Source of the DNA: Chitinophaga pinensis | GTDB taxonomy: Bacteria > Bacteroidota > Bacteroidia > NS11-12g > UBA9320 | Assembly (NCBI GenBank): GCA_945878925.1 | Contig: CAMDXE010000008.1 | Span: 1-38,507 of the forward strand | DNA length: 38,507 nt | Direction of reading: 5' to 3' | Part shown: in pieces, positions 3,818 through 15,481 of the stretch | How positions within the stretch are numbered: position 1 is the first letter of the stretch | How the letters are laid out: each line of letters opens with the position of its first letter | Notes under the pieces: model-generated | The model's input: the letters and a program-made list of their open reading frames with translations, nothing else | Told to the model about the DNA's origin: nothing | Databases searched by the model: none | Translations under genes and position numbers: made by a program

Positions 3818-6814
3818 TTACCCCAATATGTTTTTTATGTCATTTATATCCAATGTTTTGTAAAACGATTCTTCGGCCAAAACCAACTCAGAGGCCAGAT
3901 GTAATTTTTTATTTTGCAAGCTAAGTATTTTCTCTTCTACCGAATTTTTGGTAATAAATTTATAACTAAATATATTTTTGGTTTGGCCAATTCTATGAGT
4001 TCTATCTATGGCTTGCCGCTCTACGGATGGGTTCCACCAAGGATCGATAATAAAAACATAGTCGGCAGCGGTAAGAGTTAGTCCCACGCCCCCAGCTTTG
4101 AGCGATACAAGGAATAGTGGTATTTCGGGGGTTTCCTGAAAAATTTTAACTTGCGTTTGGCGCGCTTTTGCATTAAAACTCCCATCAAAGTAACAGTAGG
4201 CCATGCCTTGCTCATCAAAATGTTTCTTTAGGATATGAAGCTGCTGAACAAACTGTGAATAGATTAAAATCTTATGGCCGCTATCAATTGCCGTGCGTGT
4301 TCGCGTTAGCATTTCAATAAATTTTCCCGAACTGCCTACATACGATTTATCAATCAAATAGGGGTGATTGGCAAGCTGCCTTAACTTGGTAAGGCCTGCA
4401 ATGATATTAAATCGGGCTTTATTAATGCCAATCTCTTCAATAGTTTCTAATACCTGATTTCGGAATTGAGATTTGGTTTCTTCGTATATGGTCTCCTGCT
4501 CGGGAGTCATATCGCAATAAAGAATTTGTTCGGTTTTTTCGGGCAGCTCCTTGGCTACCTGCTGTTTGGTTCTACGAAGGATGAAGGGTTTTATAAGGGC
4601 TTTTAATTCTTCCAACTTTGCTTCATTGCGTTCGCGCTCGATTGGGGCAACATAGGTGTCTTCAAAAAATTTAAGGCCACCTAGCAATCCCGGATTTACA
4701 AAACTAATTTGCGACCACATGTCTCTAATTGTATTTTCAACTGGGGTTCCGGTAAGCACCAATTTATGCTCACTTTGCAGATGACGTGCTGATTTTGATA
4801 CCTGGCTATGCGGATTTTTTATATTTTGACTTTCGTCGAGTATAATGTAATTGAATCTAAAATTAACAAACACCTTTTCGTCGTTTCGCACTGTACCATA
4901 GGTGCTAATAATTAAATCATAGTTTTCGAAATGTTCATGGTCTTTGAGGCGCGATTGTCCACTATGAACAAAAACCTTGAGGCCGGGTGTAAATTTTTTG
5001 GATTCATTTACCCAAGTGTATATCAGCGAGGTTGGAACCACCAATAAGGATGTGTTTCCAATGCTGGAAACGGAATTAATCGAAGGAGCAACCGATTCGA
5101 AAATGGATAATTGATGTGTGTTTTTAGGTGTCTTTGATGCATCGATGGGCTCATGAATCTCGCTCATTTCTTTTTCATTTTGGAGAAGCGCCAAGGTTTG
5201 TATGGTTTTTCCTAAACCCATGTCATCGGCCAGGCATCCTCCAAATCCAAAGTCTTTCAAAAAATACATCCAATTGTATCCTGCCAATTGATAATCGCGC
5301 AATTGCCCTATAAAGCCTTTTGGCATTGGTTTTTCGGCTATTTCTTCGTAGGCTTTTAGGCCTTCAAGTTTCGATTGAATGCCCATTGAGCTTTCGAAAC
5401 CACCTAATAATCCCCAATGTATTTTTTTTAACCTTAGCTTTATACCGCCTTCGGCAAACCTCAATATCCCTTGAAATTTTGCCATCCACTCTTCGGGAAT
5501 CAAAGCTATCTCGCCATTGGGCAATATAAACTCGCGATTGCCATTCAAGATATTTTGTTTGAGTGCTATAAATGGAATTTCAAATTCGCCAAACCAAACC
5601 CTCGTTTCCAAATCAAACCAATCCGATTGTTTTGTAATTTCTATTTTTAAGTTTTTTTCACCTAAAAAAAATACTTCATTTCCCAAATTTTGATTGATCT
5701 CGAATCCCCTACCGCTTAAGGTTAATTTTTGTTGGTCGAGCCATTCGATGGTCTTGTATTTTTGGGTGCTATCTTGCTTGTCATTTTCTAAGCAAATTTT
5801 TCCAGTTGGCCTTTCTCTTAGCTTAAACACCGAACCCTCCAGCTGCACTAATCCTAGCGATTCGATGAATTCGCGCTTATGCTCCTCCCAATCGCGGCTT
5901 CGTCTTATTTTTTTAAAGACAAACGAATCGCCTGATTTTTCATAAATCGCGTGTGCCATCTTTTTGGAATGGTAGGGGAATACATGTCCATCGTATTTAA
6001 ACGAAAGTATAAATCCATACTCGCTGTTTAAAATACGTTCGAATTTTAAAACAGCCGACGCTTTATGCGTTTCTTGAATAATCTGAAAACCCTCGGCCTT
6101 AACGTTAAATTTTTCGATAAGCTCTAAACCGAATTTTTTAAAAAATATTTCTTCCGATCTATGGGCAACCGAAATATAATATTTCGACAAAAAAGGTTCA
6201 ATTTTTTTTCCATCCACATCGTCGAGCACTATCAATTTATTATCAATTATAATATGTGCCGGATTATAGGTAAGTATCGCACTGTTGCCAAGCAATTTAA
6301 GCCTTTCCGAATTGCATTTTATGGTTGCATAATATCGGGTTTCGATTTCATTTCTGTTAAAATGAAACAGCACACTTACATTCTCTTTTACAATGCTTAG
6401 TTTTTTGGCGGTAGGATTTTTTGTTTCGCTCGAAAAAAACAATTGATCCTCGTTAATGAATCCCAATGCCTCCGACAACCTTCGTTCAATATAAGGTCGT
6501 AGCACTGTTTTTAACATGGTTTCATCGCATTTTTTTTCAAAAAATTCCTTAGGTCTGATACTCCCTTTGGTATAAAATTTTTTGATCAAGCGTTCGGGTG
6601 TTATTTCTTCCAATAGTTTTATGGCCTTATAGTCGTTTTCGCCTAACAAATGGCTGTATAAGTTGGCATTAGCCGAAATAAGACGCTGGTGGGCCAACGA
6701 ATAATTGCCCAAAACAGTAACTTCCACCAAAAACGGTTCAATAATTAACCCTAAAAAAGGGTGTTTTACAATAGAGTACAGAAAAGCAATAGTTGCCTTT
6801 TCGGAAAGTTGCAT
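3818..6814 (-). CDS. SNF2-family DEAD/DEAH-box helicase
   Basis: A 998-residue Swi2/Snf2-type ATPase. The ATPase motor fills the C-terminal half: motif I DDMGLGKT at about 530, motif II DESQNIKN at about 660, motif III LTGTPVEN at about 690, then YSQFVQQL, the helicase C domain with SLKAGGVGLTLTAADYV, DPWWNPSVERQAIDRTHRIGQ-type motifs V-VI and a final FITKNSVEEKI. Such enzymes translocate on double-stranded DNA and displace bound proteins or RNA polymerase. The ~500-residue N-terminal part is typical of bacterial SNF2 proteins but shows no Cys/His SWIM zinc finger. About 45 residues rich in Ser/Thr/Asn separate motif I from LLVVPTSLIYTW, a likely loop insertion. Motif II is DESQ rather than DEAH/DEAQ, as seen in some bacterial members. 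Confidence 0.93.
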   Translation of the reverse strand: MQLSEKATIAFLYSIVKHPFLGLIIEPFLVEVTVLGNYSLAHQRLISANANLYSHLLGENDYKAIKLLEEITPERLIKKFYTKGSIRPKEFFEKKCDETMLKTVLRPYIERRLSEALGFINEDQLFFSSETKNPTAKKLSIVKENVSVLFHFNRNEIETRYYATIKCNSERLKLLGNSAILTYNPAHIIIDNKLIVLDDVDGKKIEPFLSKYYISVAHRSEEIFFKKFGLELIEKFNVKAEGFQIIQETHKASAVLKFERILNSEYGFILSFKYDGHVFPYHSKKMAHAIYEKSGDSFVFKKIRRSRDWEEHKREFIESLGLVQLEGSVFKLRERPTGKICLENDKQDSTQKYKTIEWLDQQKLTLSGRGFEINQNLGNEVFFLGEKNLKIEITKQSDWFDLETRVWFGEFEIPFIALKQNILNGNREFILPNGEIALIPEEWMAKFQGILRFAEGGIKLRLKKIHWGLLGGFESSMGIQSKLEGLKAYEEIAEKPMPKGFIGQLRDYQLAGYNWMYFLKDFGFGGCLADDMGLGKTIQTLALLQNEKEMSEIHEPIDASKTPKNTHQLSIFESVAPSINSVSSIGNTSLLVVPTSLIYTWVNESKKFTPGLKVFVHSGQSRLKDHEHFENYDLIISTYGTVRNDEKVFVNFRFNYIILDESQNIKNPHSQVSKSARHLQSEHKLVLTGTPVENTIRDMWSQISFVNPGLLGGLKFFEDTYVAPIERERNEAKLEELKALIKPFILRRTKQQVAKELPEKTEQILYCDMTPEQETIYEETKSQFRNQVLETIEEIGINKARFNIIAGLTKLRQLANHPYLIDKSYVGSSGKFIEMLTRTRTAIDSGHKILIYSQFVQQLHILKKHFDEQGMAYCYFDGSFNAKARQTQVKIFQETPEIPLFLVSLKAGGVGLTLTAADYVFIIDPWWNPSVERQAIDRTHRIGQTKNIFSYKFITKNSVEEKILSLQNKKLHLASELVLAEESFYKTLDINDIKNILG

Positions 6815-13130: not shown

Positions 13131-13358
13131 TTGAAAACTCTAGGTAACATTTTTTGTCACTTTCCATTTTTGAGTTTCGTGTCAGCAATTTTTATTTGTC
13201 TTTATGGACTGCTCTTGACTTTTACAGTTTTTTCAGCACCGATCCTACTTGGACTTATGGAGTTAAGAAAATTTTTGTTGAGGACATTAGATAACACTAT
13301 AGTAAATAAAAGAAATCTGCGAGATGAACATAATAAGGCGTGGAAAGTGGTAAATTAA
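13131..13358 (+). pseudogene. Probable truncated small membrane protein (YccF-like N-terminal half)
   Basis: A 75-residue frame that starts at TTG (no ATG near the front). Residues ~10-45 form a long hydrophobic stretch with FPFLSF, FICLYGLLLTFTV and SAPILLGLMELRKFLL, a real-looking membrane hairpin. From memory it resembles the first half of small YccF-type inner-membrane proteins of Bacteroidota, which normally run on into further membrane segments; here the frame ends in a charged tail and TAA at 13358. Poor start plus missing second half suggests a gene fragment. It could also be a genuine small protein of unknown function. Confidence 0.35.
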
Positions 13359-13453
13359 ACAGTTGTGCTACTATCAAACTTTTGAAGAAGCTTGACGGTT
13401 TAGTGCTTTTAATCCTGCCAATCGTAAACTTGAAAACCGTTAAAAATATAAAA

Positions 13454-13822
13454 ATGGCACAAGAAAACATTAACGAAGTATTAAATAAATTGCTTGACGA
13501 AAAGAATCGCCCCACAGGTATTACGGTAATTTGTATTTTAGGTTTTATTGGTGCTGCATCTTTTAATCAACTTATCTTTTCAGACTTAGCAGACCAAATT
13601 GGAAGTTGGTGTCCACCTTATTTAGGCCTTTCAGCAATAATAGGGATAATGTGTTTGGTTGGGCTGTGGCAAATGAAAAAGTGGGCGGTATACACATACA
13701 CATGGTTTGTAGGACTTAATCAAATAGTTCTTTTGGTAATGGGGGTTTGGAATGTTGCGGCTCTTATAATTCCTGTAATGGTTGTAGGCATCGCTTTGGC
13801 TCATCTTAAAAAAATGGACTAA
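13454..13822 (+). CDS. Small multi-pass membrane protein, unknown function
   Basis: A 122-residue protein. The ORF track begins at 13340, but the ATG at 13454, preceded by an A-rich stretch, gives a sensible start (MAQENINEVLNKLL). After a ~20-residue cytoplasmic lead with RPTGITVICILGFIGA come three to four hydrophobic segments (about 22-40, 50-68, 74-92 and 95-115) and a short basic tail (LAHLKKMD). The RPTGITV entry into the first membrane helix is common in small uncharacterised membrane proteins. It shares its surroundings with gene fragments, so it belongs to the accessory region rather than to a recognisable operon. Confidence 0.6.
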   Translation: MAQENINEVLNKLLDEKNRPTGITVICILGFIGAASFNQLIFSDLADQIGSWCPPYLGLSAIIGIMCLVGLWQMKKWAVYTYTWFVGLNQIVLLVMGVWNVAALIIPVMVVGIALAHLKKMD

Positions 13823-13869: not shown

Positions 13870-13982
13870 GCCCAAGTAACGAATTTTGCCCTAAACTTAA
13901 AATTTCTTCTAACGCTATTTAACAGAATTTCGAAGACTTACAAGGACTTATTCATAATAAAAGCTTTCAAGAAATGAAACCT
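13870..13982. repeat. Direct repeat copy 1 bounding the toxin-antitoxin islet
   Basis: A 113-base sequence found again at 15274-15386 in the same orientation, with equal length, no gaps and six mismatches by eye (about 95% identity). It begins GCCCAAGTAACGAATTTTGC and ends ATGAAACCT. Copy 2 ends inside the terminator stem of tRNA-Val. In copy 1 the hairpin is degraded (CAAG for CAGG) and joins a gene fragment instead of a tRNA. Confidence 0.9.
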
Positions 13983-14113
13983 TGTTTACCCAACGTAATT
14001 TTGACTTCAATGAAAGCTTCTTGGCTCCAATTACCGAAATTTGGATAGATTCAAACCGAAAAATGTATGGTTGGAAAAATCCATCAACTGTAGTAAATTT
14101 GATAAAAAAATAG
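13983..14113 (+). pseudogene. C-terminal fragment of an unknown protein
   Basis: Immediately after repeat copy 1 the plus strand is open for ~43 codons to a TAG at 14111-14113, encoding FTQRNFDFNESFLAP...TEIWIDSNRKMYGWKN...NLIKK. The composition and aromatic-rich pattern look like a true protein C-terminus. It has no start codon of its own, and its frame is closed by a TAA (13958-13960) inside the repeat, as if the gene's front had been replaced by the repeat. The stop is 3 bases before the antitoxin ATG. I do not recognise the family. Confidence 0.35.
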
Positions 14114-14116
14114 AAC

Positions 14117-14365
14117 ATGAATACATCAGAACTAAAACTTAGTATATTTAGACAGATAGATTTATTGGATAAAAACCAATTGAGCGAACTGTCAGCAATA
14201 GTTCGTAATTTGACACATGGCCAATATGGAATTGACGATTGGGAGAATCTTTCGATTATTGAGAAAGAAGGAATTCTTGAAAGTATAAAACACTTGGAAG
14301 CAGATGGTGGTATTCAACACGAAACAGTTATAAAAGAAATTCGGAAAAAATTCACAAATGTCTAA
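14117..14365 (+). CDS. Addiction-module antitoxin (RelB/ParD-type partner of a RelE/ParE toxin)
   Basis: An 82-residue acidic/helical protein. The pattern WENLSIIEKEGILESIKHLEADGGIQHETVIKEIRKKF is the common tail of addiction-module antitoxins, where a W-x-x-L-S-x-x-E motif precedes a helix and a toxin-wrapping segment. Its stop overlaps the start of a RelE/ParE-like frame by 8 bases, the typical antitoxin-toxin arrangement. Because that toxin is truncated, this antitoxin is probably an orphan. Such proteins usually repress their own operon and neutralise the partner. Confidence 0.65.
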   Translation: MNTSELKLSIFRQIDLLDKNQLSELSAIVRNLTHGQYGIDDWENLSIIEKEGILESIKHLEADGGIQHETVIKEIRKKFTNV

Positions 14366-14483
14366 TAACATTGTTTGGTCTTCTCATGCTGTAGAGGATC
14401 TAAACGAAATTGTTGAATACCTTTTAATAAGTTGGAACATCAAGGTGACAATTCAATACATTAACTGGGTAGACGACTTCTAA
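14358..14483 (+). pseudogene. Truncated RelE/ParE-type toxin
   Basis: This 41-codon frame, too short for the ORF track, starts MSNNIVWSSHAVEDLNEIVEYLL...WVDDF and stops. The IVWSxxAxxDLxEIVEYL opening is the first two helices of the RelE/ParE toxin fold, which normally continues to about 95-100 residues with catalytic or target-binding residues in the C-terminal strands. Those are absent here. Beyond the stop a short LPDNYYY remnant precedes the next gene pair, so the toxin's back part seems deleted. Expected to be inactive. Confidence 0.55.
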
Positions 14484-14528
14484 TTGCCAGACAATTATTA
14501 TTATATTTGAAACATAAAATGTTTGATA

Positions 14529-14732
14529 ATGTTAATTGAAAGAACTAATAATGAGGTTATAATTCGGCTCCCCTCCAATGTTGATACGGAAGGACTCCAA
14601 CGTCTTGTAGATTATTTAAGCTACAAAGAGGCAACCTCTAAGTCCCAAGCCAAGCAATCGGACGTCGACAAACTGGCCAAAGAAGTTAAAAGGGGTTGGT
14701 GGACAAAAAATCGAAGCCGATTTATAAAGTGA
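14529..14732 (+). CDS. Antitoxin of a PIN-domain toxin pair
   Basis: A 67-residue protein from the ATG at 14529 (the track's TTG start adds two residues). It opens with a short strand (NNEVIIRLP), then ...TEGLQRLVDYLSYKEATSKSQAKQ and a C-terminal helix VDKLAKEVKRGWWTKNRSRF. This DNA-binding plus basic/Trp-rich tail layout is typical of small antitoxins paired with PIN-family toxins in Bacteroidota. It overlaps the toxin by 4 bases (GTGA), a strong sign of coupled translation. Presumed to autoregulate the pair. Confidence 0.7.
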   Translation: MLIERTNNEVIIRLPSNVDTEGLQRLVDYLSYKEATSKSQAKQSDVDKLAKEVKRGWWTKNRSRFIK

Positions 14733-15172
14733 AAATAATTGTAGACACAAATATTATTTTCAGTGGCCTGATTAACACTAATGGAACAATTGGTGACCTG
14801 CTTCTTAACTCCTATAATATTTTAGAATTTTATAGTTGCAACTATATGCGGTATGAAATTGACAAGCACTGGGAAAAGTTAAAGCGTATTTCTAAACTTT
14901 CAGAAGACGAATTAGAAGAATCTCGATTTAATATATTTTCTAGGGTAAATTTTATTAAAGAAGATCTCATTCCTGAAAAGATTTGGCATAGTGCAGAGAA
15001 GATTGTTGCAGACATTGACATTGATGATTCTGATTTTATAGCCTTGACAAAATATCTAAAAGGCTATTTATGGACAGGCGACAAAGAATTATACAATGGA
15101 CTCAAACTAAAAAATTTCAAACGACTTTATAATACAGCGGAATTATTAGCTATAAGAAATGGGAGAAATTGA
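14729..15172 (+). CDS. PIN-domain toxin (VapC-like ribonuclease)
   Basis: A 147-residue protein from GTG 14729, whose GTGA overlaps the antitoxin stop; the track's TTG at 14696 is less likely. PIN fold signatures are KIIVDTNIIFSGL (first catalytic Asp, residue 6), an acidic residue near 43 (MRYEID), DIDDSDFIAL and LWTGDKELYNGL (third and fourth acidic positions). All four acid positions of the active site seem present. PIN toxins are Mg-dependent endoribonucleases that cut tRNA or rRNA and slow growth. The pair appears intact, unlike the RelE/ParE pair before it. It is followed by repeat copy 2 and tRNA-Val. Confidence 0.78.
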   Translation: MKIIVDTNIIFSGLINTNGTIGDLLLNSYNILEFYSCNYMRYEIDKHWEKLKRISKLSEDELEESRFNIFSRVNFIKEDLIPEKIWHSAEKIVADIDIDDSDFIALTKYLKGYLWTGDKELYNGLKLKNFKRLYNTAELLAIRNGRN

Positions 15173-15273
15173 AACTGAATATTCGAAAGCCATCCGCAAA
15201 CAGCTAGTATAGTCAATGGGTGTTTATGGGTTTTGAAAGTTCAAACTTCTGTCTAGTTCTGAAATAGATTTAC

Positions 15274-15386
15274 GCCCAACTAACGAATTTTGCCCTAAAC
15301 ATAAAATTTCTTCTAACGCTATTTAACAGAATTTCGAAGACTTATAAGGCCTTATTCATAAAAAAAGCTTTCAGGAAATGAAACCT
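15274..15386. repeat. Direct repeat copy 2, next to tRNA-Val
   Basis: The same 113-base unit as 13870-13982. It starts GCCCAACTAACG and ends within the left-hand side of the tRNA-Val terminator hairpin. Here the hairpin is intact, so this is likely the original locus and copy 1 the derived or imported one. Confidence 0.9.
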
Positions 15387-15392
15387 GAAAGC
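15360..15392 (-). terminator. Terminator of tRNA-Val
   Basis: A perfect 9-bp stem GCTTTCAGG/CCTGAAAGC with an 8-base loop, followed on the minus strand by seven T. It begins 15 bases beyond the 3' end of the tRNA. The same element, partly decayed, is present in repeat copy 1. Confidence 0.8.
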
Positions 15393-15406
15393 CTTGATGA
15401 TGTTAG

Positions 15407-15481
15407 TGGGGGCTACTGGGTTCGAACCAGTGACCCTCTGCTTGTAAGGCAGATGCTCTGAACCAGCTGAGCTAAGCCCCC
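15407..15481 (-). tRNA. tRNA-Val (anticodon TAC)
   Basis: Reading the minus strand, the 75-base sequence folds as a full cloverleaf. The acceptor is GGGGGCT/AGCCCCC, the D-arm GCTC...GAGC, the anticodon stem TCTGC/GCAGA with loop CTTACAA (anticodon TAC, reading GTA), and the T-arm ACTGG/CCAGT with TTCGAAC. The discriminator base is A. The 3' CCA is not encoded. Confidence 0.97.

Follow-up and report, generated by a model that had tools for sequence, protein, structure and literature searches.

The insertion of restriction-modification (R-M) systems with long target duplications is said to go back to original reports by Nobusato et al. in 2000 and Furuta et al. in 2010. For some of these systems, such duplications have been described as variable in length and of about 100 bp (review, PMC3874152). 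The question by which means small chromosomal toxin-antitoxin modules get from one genome to another without a transposase is still open, and a largely open-access literature search has returned no paper that describes such repeats as a general feature of toxin-antitoxin loci. A close parallel is found in Microcystis aeruginosa PCC 7806, where a ParE/ParD-like module linked to MaOC1 is fenced by identical 152-bp direct repeats, the first of which follows the stop codon of the adjacent gene at a distance of 14 bp; the passages of that paper on the module do not use the term target duplication (PMC7935541).

Here, we describe an islet of toxin-antitoxin genes next to tRNA-Val, which is located in a stretch of 38,507 nucleotides (in the following, the window means this whole analysed stretch) and is enclosed by two long direct repeats. 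The features of the locus are as follows:

13870..13982, no strand, direct repeat copy 1: decayed second version of the tRNA-Val 3′ flank in a displaced position, terminator hairpin lost
13983..14116, plus strand, putative gene fragment lacking its start: open frame closed by a stop codon (from the ORF list)
14117..14365, plus strand, antitoxin of 82 aa from a ParE/RelE-type pair, now orphaned (from its relative in genome G086)
14358..14483, plus strand, truncated ParE/RelE-like toxin, 41 of ~99 aa (weak Pfam match and alignment with G086)
14529..14732, plus strand, antitoxin of the PIN pair, 67 aa from ATG (from relatives and conserved pairing)
14729..15172, plus strand, predicted PIN-domain RNase toxin (PIN_2, PF10130, E 2e-24)
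15274..15386, no strand, direct repeat copy 2: tRNA-Val 3′ flank carrying most of the working terminator
15360..15395, minus strand, predicted rho-independent terminator of tRNA-Val (RNA fold −17.6 kcal/mol, z −6.2)
15406-15481, minus strand, tRNA-Val(TAC), the gene with the duplicated 3′ flank (ARAGORN; Rfam RF00005)

The two repeat copies, each of 113 nt, have been aligned in direct orientation and without gaps, and are identical at 107 of 113 positions (95%), the six mismatches leaving no identical run longer than 43 nt, which confirms the repeats and the coordinates given for them in a first-pass annotation of this DNA. They lie 1404 bases apart and enclose 1291 bases. As the sole direct repeat of at least 40 nt within the window (E 4e-45), the pair is not a product of chance. 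The search for further copies that had been proposed earlier has been run over the own genome (2.4 Mb, 203 contigs) and has recovered these two copies only. An exact search with a 20-mer common to both copies, CTTCTAACGCTATTTAACAG, has given no match among 85,462 species genomes of bacteria and archaea, and viral contigs have given none either; the repeat is therefore not the dispersed family that had been named as one refutation of the first interpretation. Two candidates for a third, weak copy inside the islet have been rejected, one at 13991-14054 being marginal after several tests (2 of 200 shuffles), the other, at 14510-14544, lying within the upstream region of the PIN antitoxin itself (0 of 200 shuffles).

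Regarding the tRNA gene, repeat copy 2 has been found to end inside the second arm of the predicted terminator (in plus-strand sense), and the corresponding part of copy 1 hardly exceeds shuffled sequence in folding strength (z −0.97, versus −6.2 for the terminator), so that the earlier claim of an intact and a decayed hairpin is borne out by the folds. The hairpin part of copy 2 also matches the congeners G004 and G006. Since copy 2 folds into the hairpin and has these counterparts, it is taken as the working version and copy 1 as the decayed one. A gap of 19 bases separates the repeat (end at 15386) from the tRNA gene (start at 15406), and the tRNA 3′ end is not included in the repeats. As the tRNA 3′ end is left out, and as similar units elsewhere target the ends of protein genes, the tRNA is probably an incidental neighbour. 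The start of copy 2 is complementary to the end of the tRNA over 12 bases, with a modest fold signal; this has been treated as coincidence because G004, which has no islet, likewise carries TTAGTGGG at the tRNA end.

The antitoxin and PIN genes (14529-15172) are predicted to form an intact type II PIN toxin-antitoxin pair, in which the GTG start of the toxin overlaps the antitoxin stop by 4 nt. The acidic residues D4, E41, D95, D98 and D116 of the toxin are invariant among its relatives. Of 389 genomes from the class, 27 contain relatives of the antitoxin, and its gene is conserved beside a PIN gene at other loci. The pair shares with VapBC-type PIN pairs (PF10130, PIN_2) a PIN RNase with conserved acids and a small, overlapping upstream antitoxin, but unlike in these pairs the antitoxin exceeds the cut-off of no Pfam or NCBIfam model. 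The 82-aa antitoxin ahead of the pair is 34% identical to a protein of the same length that directly precedes a 99-aa ParE toxin in G086, the only relative found within the order. The 41-aa remnant behind it matches the Pfam ParE model below cut-off (E 0.042), and can be aligned with residues 1-37 of the toxin from G086. Homology accordingly upholds the orphan antitoxin, the truncated toxin and the intact PIN pair of the first-pass annotation, and its headless fragment (13983-14116) is retained as an open frame with a stop codon, for which no relative has been found on plasmids. No integrase or transposase is present among the ORFs of the islet, as had been stated before, and nothing resembling the islet has been found in plasmid and phage collections.

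The interval between EF-G2 and tRNA-Val has been compared among congeners, and neither the 113-nt repeat nor the islet occurs in G003, G004, G005 or G006. The empty-site comparison suggested in the first-pass annotation, which had asked for a single repeat copy, comes out in favour of an insertion to the extent that the interval in G003 is ~0.2 kb long and empty, with no toxin-antitoxin gene and with no recognisable repeat either. The three others carry unrelated DNA at this place: one large adhesin-like gene in G004, a Fic-domain gene together with an IS1-family transposase gene in G005 (L022, 4788-7786), and unrelated genes adjoining the tRNA in G006, where EF-G2 does not lie within 12 kb. 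The same two-copy layout, which had been named as a further refutation if shared by all relatives, is carried by none of them. Among 110 genomes of the order, one substantial DNA match to the islet has been obtained, i.e., the PIN pair of G013, which is placed among glycosyltransferase genes; the other matches are of chance length (30-39 nt). With the congener intervals empty or otherwise filled, and with the sole substantial match in a different context, the islet is, as far as these genomes tell, a lineage-specific insertion in a variable interval. The interval resembles an insertion hotspot in the genus.

Repeats of this kind have been surveyed around other toxin-antitoxin loci. A locus has been counted as straddled when the toxin has direct repeats of 45 nt or more on both sides within 2.5 kb, and the PIN sample has consisted of 53 named loci of PIN-toxin relatives, taken with 3-kb flanks, and 45 further distinct loci from whole-genome searches, which like all other sets were taken with flanks of 1.5 kb. 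Straddling repeats, 45-290 bases long, have been found at 16 of 98 PIN loci (10/53 named, 6/45 from whole genomes) and at 5 of 30 HicA loci, compared with none of 30 genes of an epimerase family and none of 30 GNAT acetyltransferase genes from the same class. The resulting contrast of 21/128 to 0/60 (Fisher P 1.8e-4), or of 11/75 to 0/60 (P 0.001) for the sets with 1.5-kb flanks alone, is drawn against control genes unmatched to toxin-antitoxin genes for mobility, and the P values are exploratory because thresholds were picked during the work. The background, determined in 533 kb of other DNA, amounts to 0.6% of gene-sized placements. About 84% of the sampled PIN and HicA loci have no such repeats, which may have been lost with time at these loci, or other routes may exist.

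Among the 21 straddled loci, L119, L101, L192 and L216 lie in repeat-rich DNA, and the repeats of L106 may be the starts of paralogous glycosyltransferases; these five have been left out of the clean cases. The repeats differ in sequence from one locus to the next, those around the PIN-toxin relatives being mutually unrelated, and nine loci constitute the clean gene-end cases. In seven of these, the repeat is the 3′ end of the neighbouring gene, namely that of an ABC-F ATPase (L089), panB (L108), a sucB-like 2-oxoacid dehydrogenase acyltransferase (L111), ftsK (L143), an acyl-CoA synthetase (L157), an outer-membrane protein (L166) and an M16-type peptidase (L210), the last three being assigned from sequence alone. 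In L167 and L208, it is the 5′ end of a gene, which by sequence encodes an SDR enzyme and a tyrosine recombinase, respectively. Each gene-end case has one copy on the intact gene and the other as a fragment beyond the module, and the islet follows this plan with the tRNA terminator as the target. The inserts at other loci measure ~0.6-1.3 kb, and those of L132 and L143 are essentially a bare antitoxin-toxin pair (653 and 669 nt). An empty site of the kind sought in the first-pass annotation has been provided at another locus by nine relatives of G586, whose match to L143 is confined to the ftsK end and which carry neither the module nor a second ftsK end; a corresponding search for L167 has yielded no usable orthologous locus in relatives. 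The distances between module and repeat range from about −31 to 546 nt, a variability that is hard to reconcile with a dedicated recombinase acting on an element of fixed ends.

We consider it probable that the islet is a toxin-antitoxin insertion with a long target duplication, for which the tRNA-Val 3′ flank was the target. DNA with the PIN antitoxin-toxin pair would have entered just downstream of tRNA-Val, and the ParE-type pair, since broken, would have come together with it or would have joined before or after. The entry would have left ~113 bases of the tRNA 3′ flank on both sides without the involvement of a transposase, an integrase or defined element ends, and with a working terminator kept by the tRNA in copy 2, copy 1 would have been free to decay. 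The repeats had earlier been judged too long for a normal target duplication, which is true of transposases and does not apply to R-M systems, for which ~100 bp have been described (PMC3874152). Like these systems, the islet contains a small addiction module without a transposase, between direct target duplications of about 100 bp and variable length. Unlike these, it holds a PIN-type pair with no DNA-cutting enzyme, its target is a tRNA 3′ flank, and its two copies already differ at 5% of sites. The Microcystis module equally has a toxin-antitoxin pair within direct repeats that begin close to a neighbouring gene, but according to the passages describing it these are identical and contain a 16-bp inverted repeat, and phylum and toxin family are different (PMC7935541).

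The position of the islet also recalls the islands that tyrosine recombinases integrate at tRNA genes, in which accessory genes adjoin the tRNA and direct repeats restore the end of the gene. The islet might be the remnant of such a larger, integrase-borne island at tRNA-Val, with the repeats as attL and attR and all but the toxin-antitoxin genes lost, and the tRNA neighbourhood, the variable content of the interval in congeners and four tyrosine recombinases elsewhere in the own genome are compatible with this. However, these recombinases are found on other contigs, one of them being XerD-like, and neither the islet nor its surroundings encode an integrase. The 19 bases next to the tRNA gene lie outside the repeats, which contain no tRNA sequence, and the architecture recurs in other genomes at the ends of many different protein genes, with inserts of only ~0.6-1.3 kb, all of which makes this origin improbable. 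The first-pass annotation had considered both a cassette-like unit recombined in by homology and a larger-element remnant; its view that DNA was brought in and left a long duplication is supported, and the cassette-like recombination fits better than the remnant at tRNA-Val. For integron-type cassettes in the strict sense, the repeats would be attC sites and the toxin-antitoxin genes the cassettes. Toxin-antitoxin cassettes are known in superintegrons (PMC2654758), and copy 2 starts with GCCCAAC, which fits the attC core RYYYAAC; yet the 113-mers fold no better than shuffled sequence (z 0.04 and 0.56), no integron integrase above cut-off has been detected (TIGR02249, at most 211.7 bits versus 265), and with two copies only and repeats elsewhere that are gene ends and not attC sites, an integron is scarcely credible.

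Ordinary local rearrangement might instead have duplicated the flank, and toxin-antitoxin DNA might have been inserted between the two copies in a later, independent event. Duplications do occur on a local scale, copy 1 is decayed and the islet is composite, all of which would suit such a history, but two events would have to coincide in position in every one of many genomes, and background repeat pairs occur at 0.6% of placements as opposed to 16% at toxin-antitoxin loci, and we regard this sequence of events as unlikely. That the versions of the tRNA flank from two strains were stitched around the islet during assembly could be imagined for a draft, probably metagenome-derived genome of 203 contigs, in which diverged copies would be expected from strain mixing. 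The longest identical run of 43 nt and the lack of any overlap between islet end and repeat that could cause a false join speak against this, as do the 109-nt repeats around an accessory gene in the isolate Larkinella terrae (L099) and the identical repeats around a toxin-antitoxin pair reported for the cultured Microcystis PCC 7806 (PMC7935541), so that an assembly artefact is very unlikely.

For the insertion with target duplication, two routes may be envisaged. The target could have been duplicated on the spot at insertion, the spare copy then drifting; or the module could have been imported from a related or diverged strain while attached to the donor version of the same gene end, one side being joined by homologous recombination at that gene end and the other illegitimately, so that the donor and recipient versions of the gene end would flank the module. 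Such homology-facilitated illegitimate recombination, i.e., one-sided homologous integration, has been described for naturally competent bacteria and for conjugation (PMC3240628). Differences between the two copies could separate duplication on the spot from the import of a foreign allele. In the coding 3′-end cases, 24 synonymous and 21 nonsynonymous differences have been counted at an expected synonymous fraction of 0.24, and the differences between the ftsK copies and between the acyl-CoA synthetase copies are all synonymous. This excess favours the import, as the copies differ like alleles under selection, and it is not decisive, because a retained conserved copy would also gather synonymous changes; the 5′-end cases, with 20 synonymous and 32 nonsynonymous differences, are compatible with either route. 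We therefore favour, as an inferred route, one-sided homologous import over duplication on the spot. The repeats, the decay of copy 1, the lack of the islet in congeners and the recurrence of the architecture around this toxin family and HicAB are directly observed. For the islet, we infer a single event of entry, its route and present-day excision, the last of which would be possible in principle through the repeats; since the islet holds two modules, one event and several would leave the same picture. Toxin addiction would select against loss by recombination between the repeats.

The insertion type is already known from R-M systems, and the point of interest is its possible generality, by which the mobility of toxin-antitoxin modules would be tied to the mechanism described for those systems. 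The presence of the architecture at about one-sixth of related toxin-antitoxin loci suggests that the modules spread without any transposase, and the gene-end duplications around a module provide a signature that can be counted (repeats at ~16% of PIN/HicAB loci, 0/60 control genes). As a tentative and still rather doubtful generalization, chromosomal type II modules might move in this transposase-free manner as a rule, attached to the end of a neighbouring gene and recombining there, with donor and recipient copies left behind as a scar that is still visible at about one in six of the PIN and HicAB loci sampled.

Several further loci have been noticed in the course of the survey. In L110 (3431-5425, corresponding to the L146 locus), a PIN toxin-antitoxin pair adjoins three copies of the 5′ end of an isochorismatase gene, which are separated by ORFs of 262 and 219 aa; this looks like serial insertions, each with its own target duplication. 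L127 (776-1608) holds a HicAB-type pair between 90-nt direct repeats (92%), which resemble the start of a REP-associated transposase gene. From the gene-start copies of L110 and the HicAB pair of L127, the process spans more than one toxin family. In L099 of Larkinella terrae (4945-6415), the gene between the 109-nt direct repeats (88%) encodes an AAA_14/DUF4143 ATPase, and the phenomenon may thus extend to other accessory genes. A 400-kb sample of the own genome contains a second short repeat pair, L076 on contig C9 (12949-13677). Its 68-nt repeats (87%) are located a short way upstream of gatB, on either side of an antitoxin-like ORF of 75 aa (13349-13576, minus strand). This ORF matches no Pfam family, and the locus may be a further toxin-antitoxin insertion that has decayed. 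Finally, the PIN antitoxin has given eight matches, spread over several contigs, in the 4.8-Mb genome G155, a result suggestive of multiplication within a genome.
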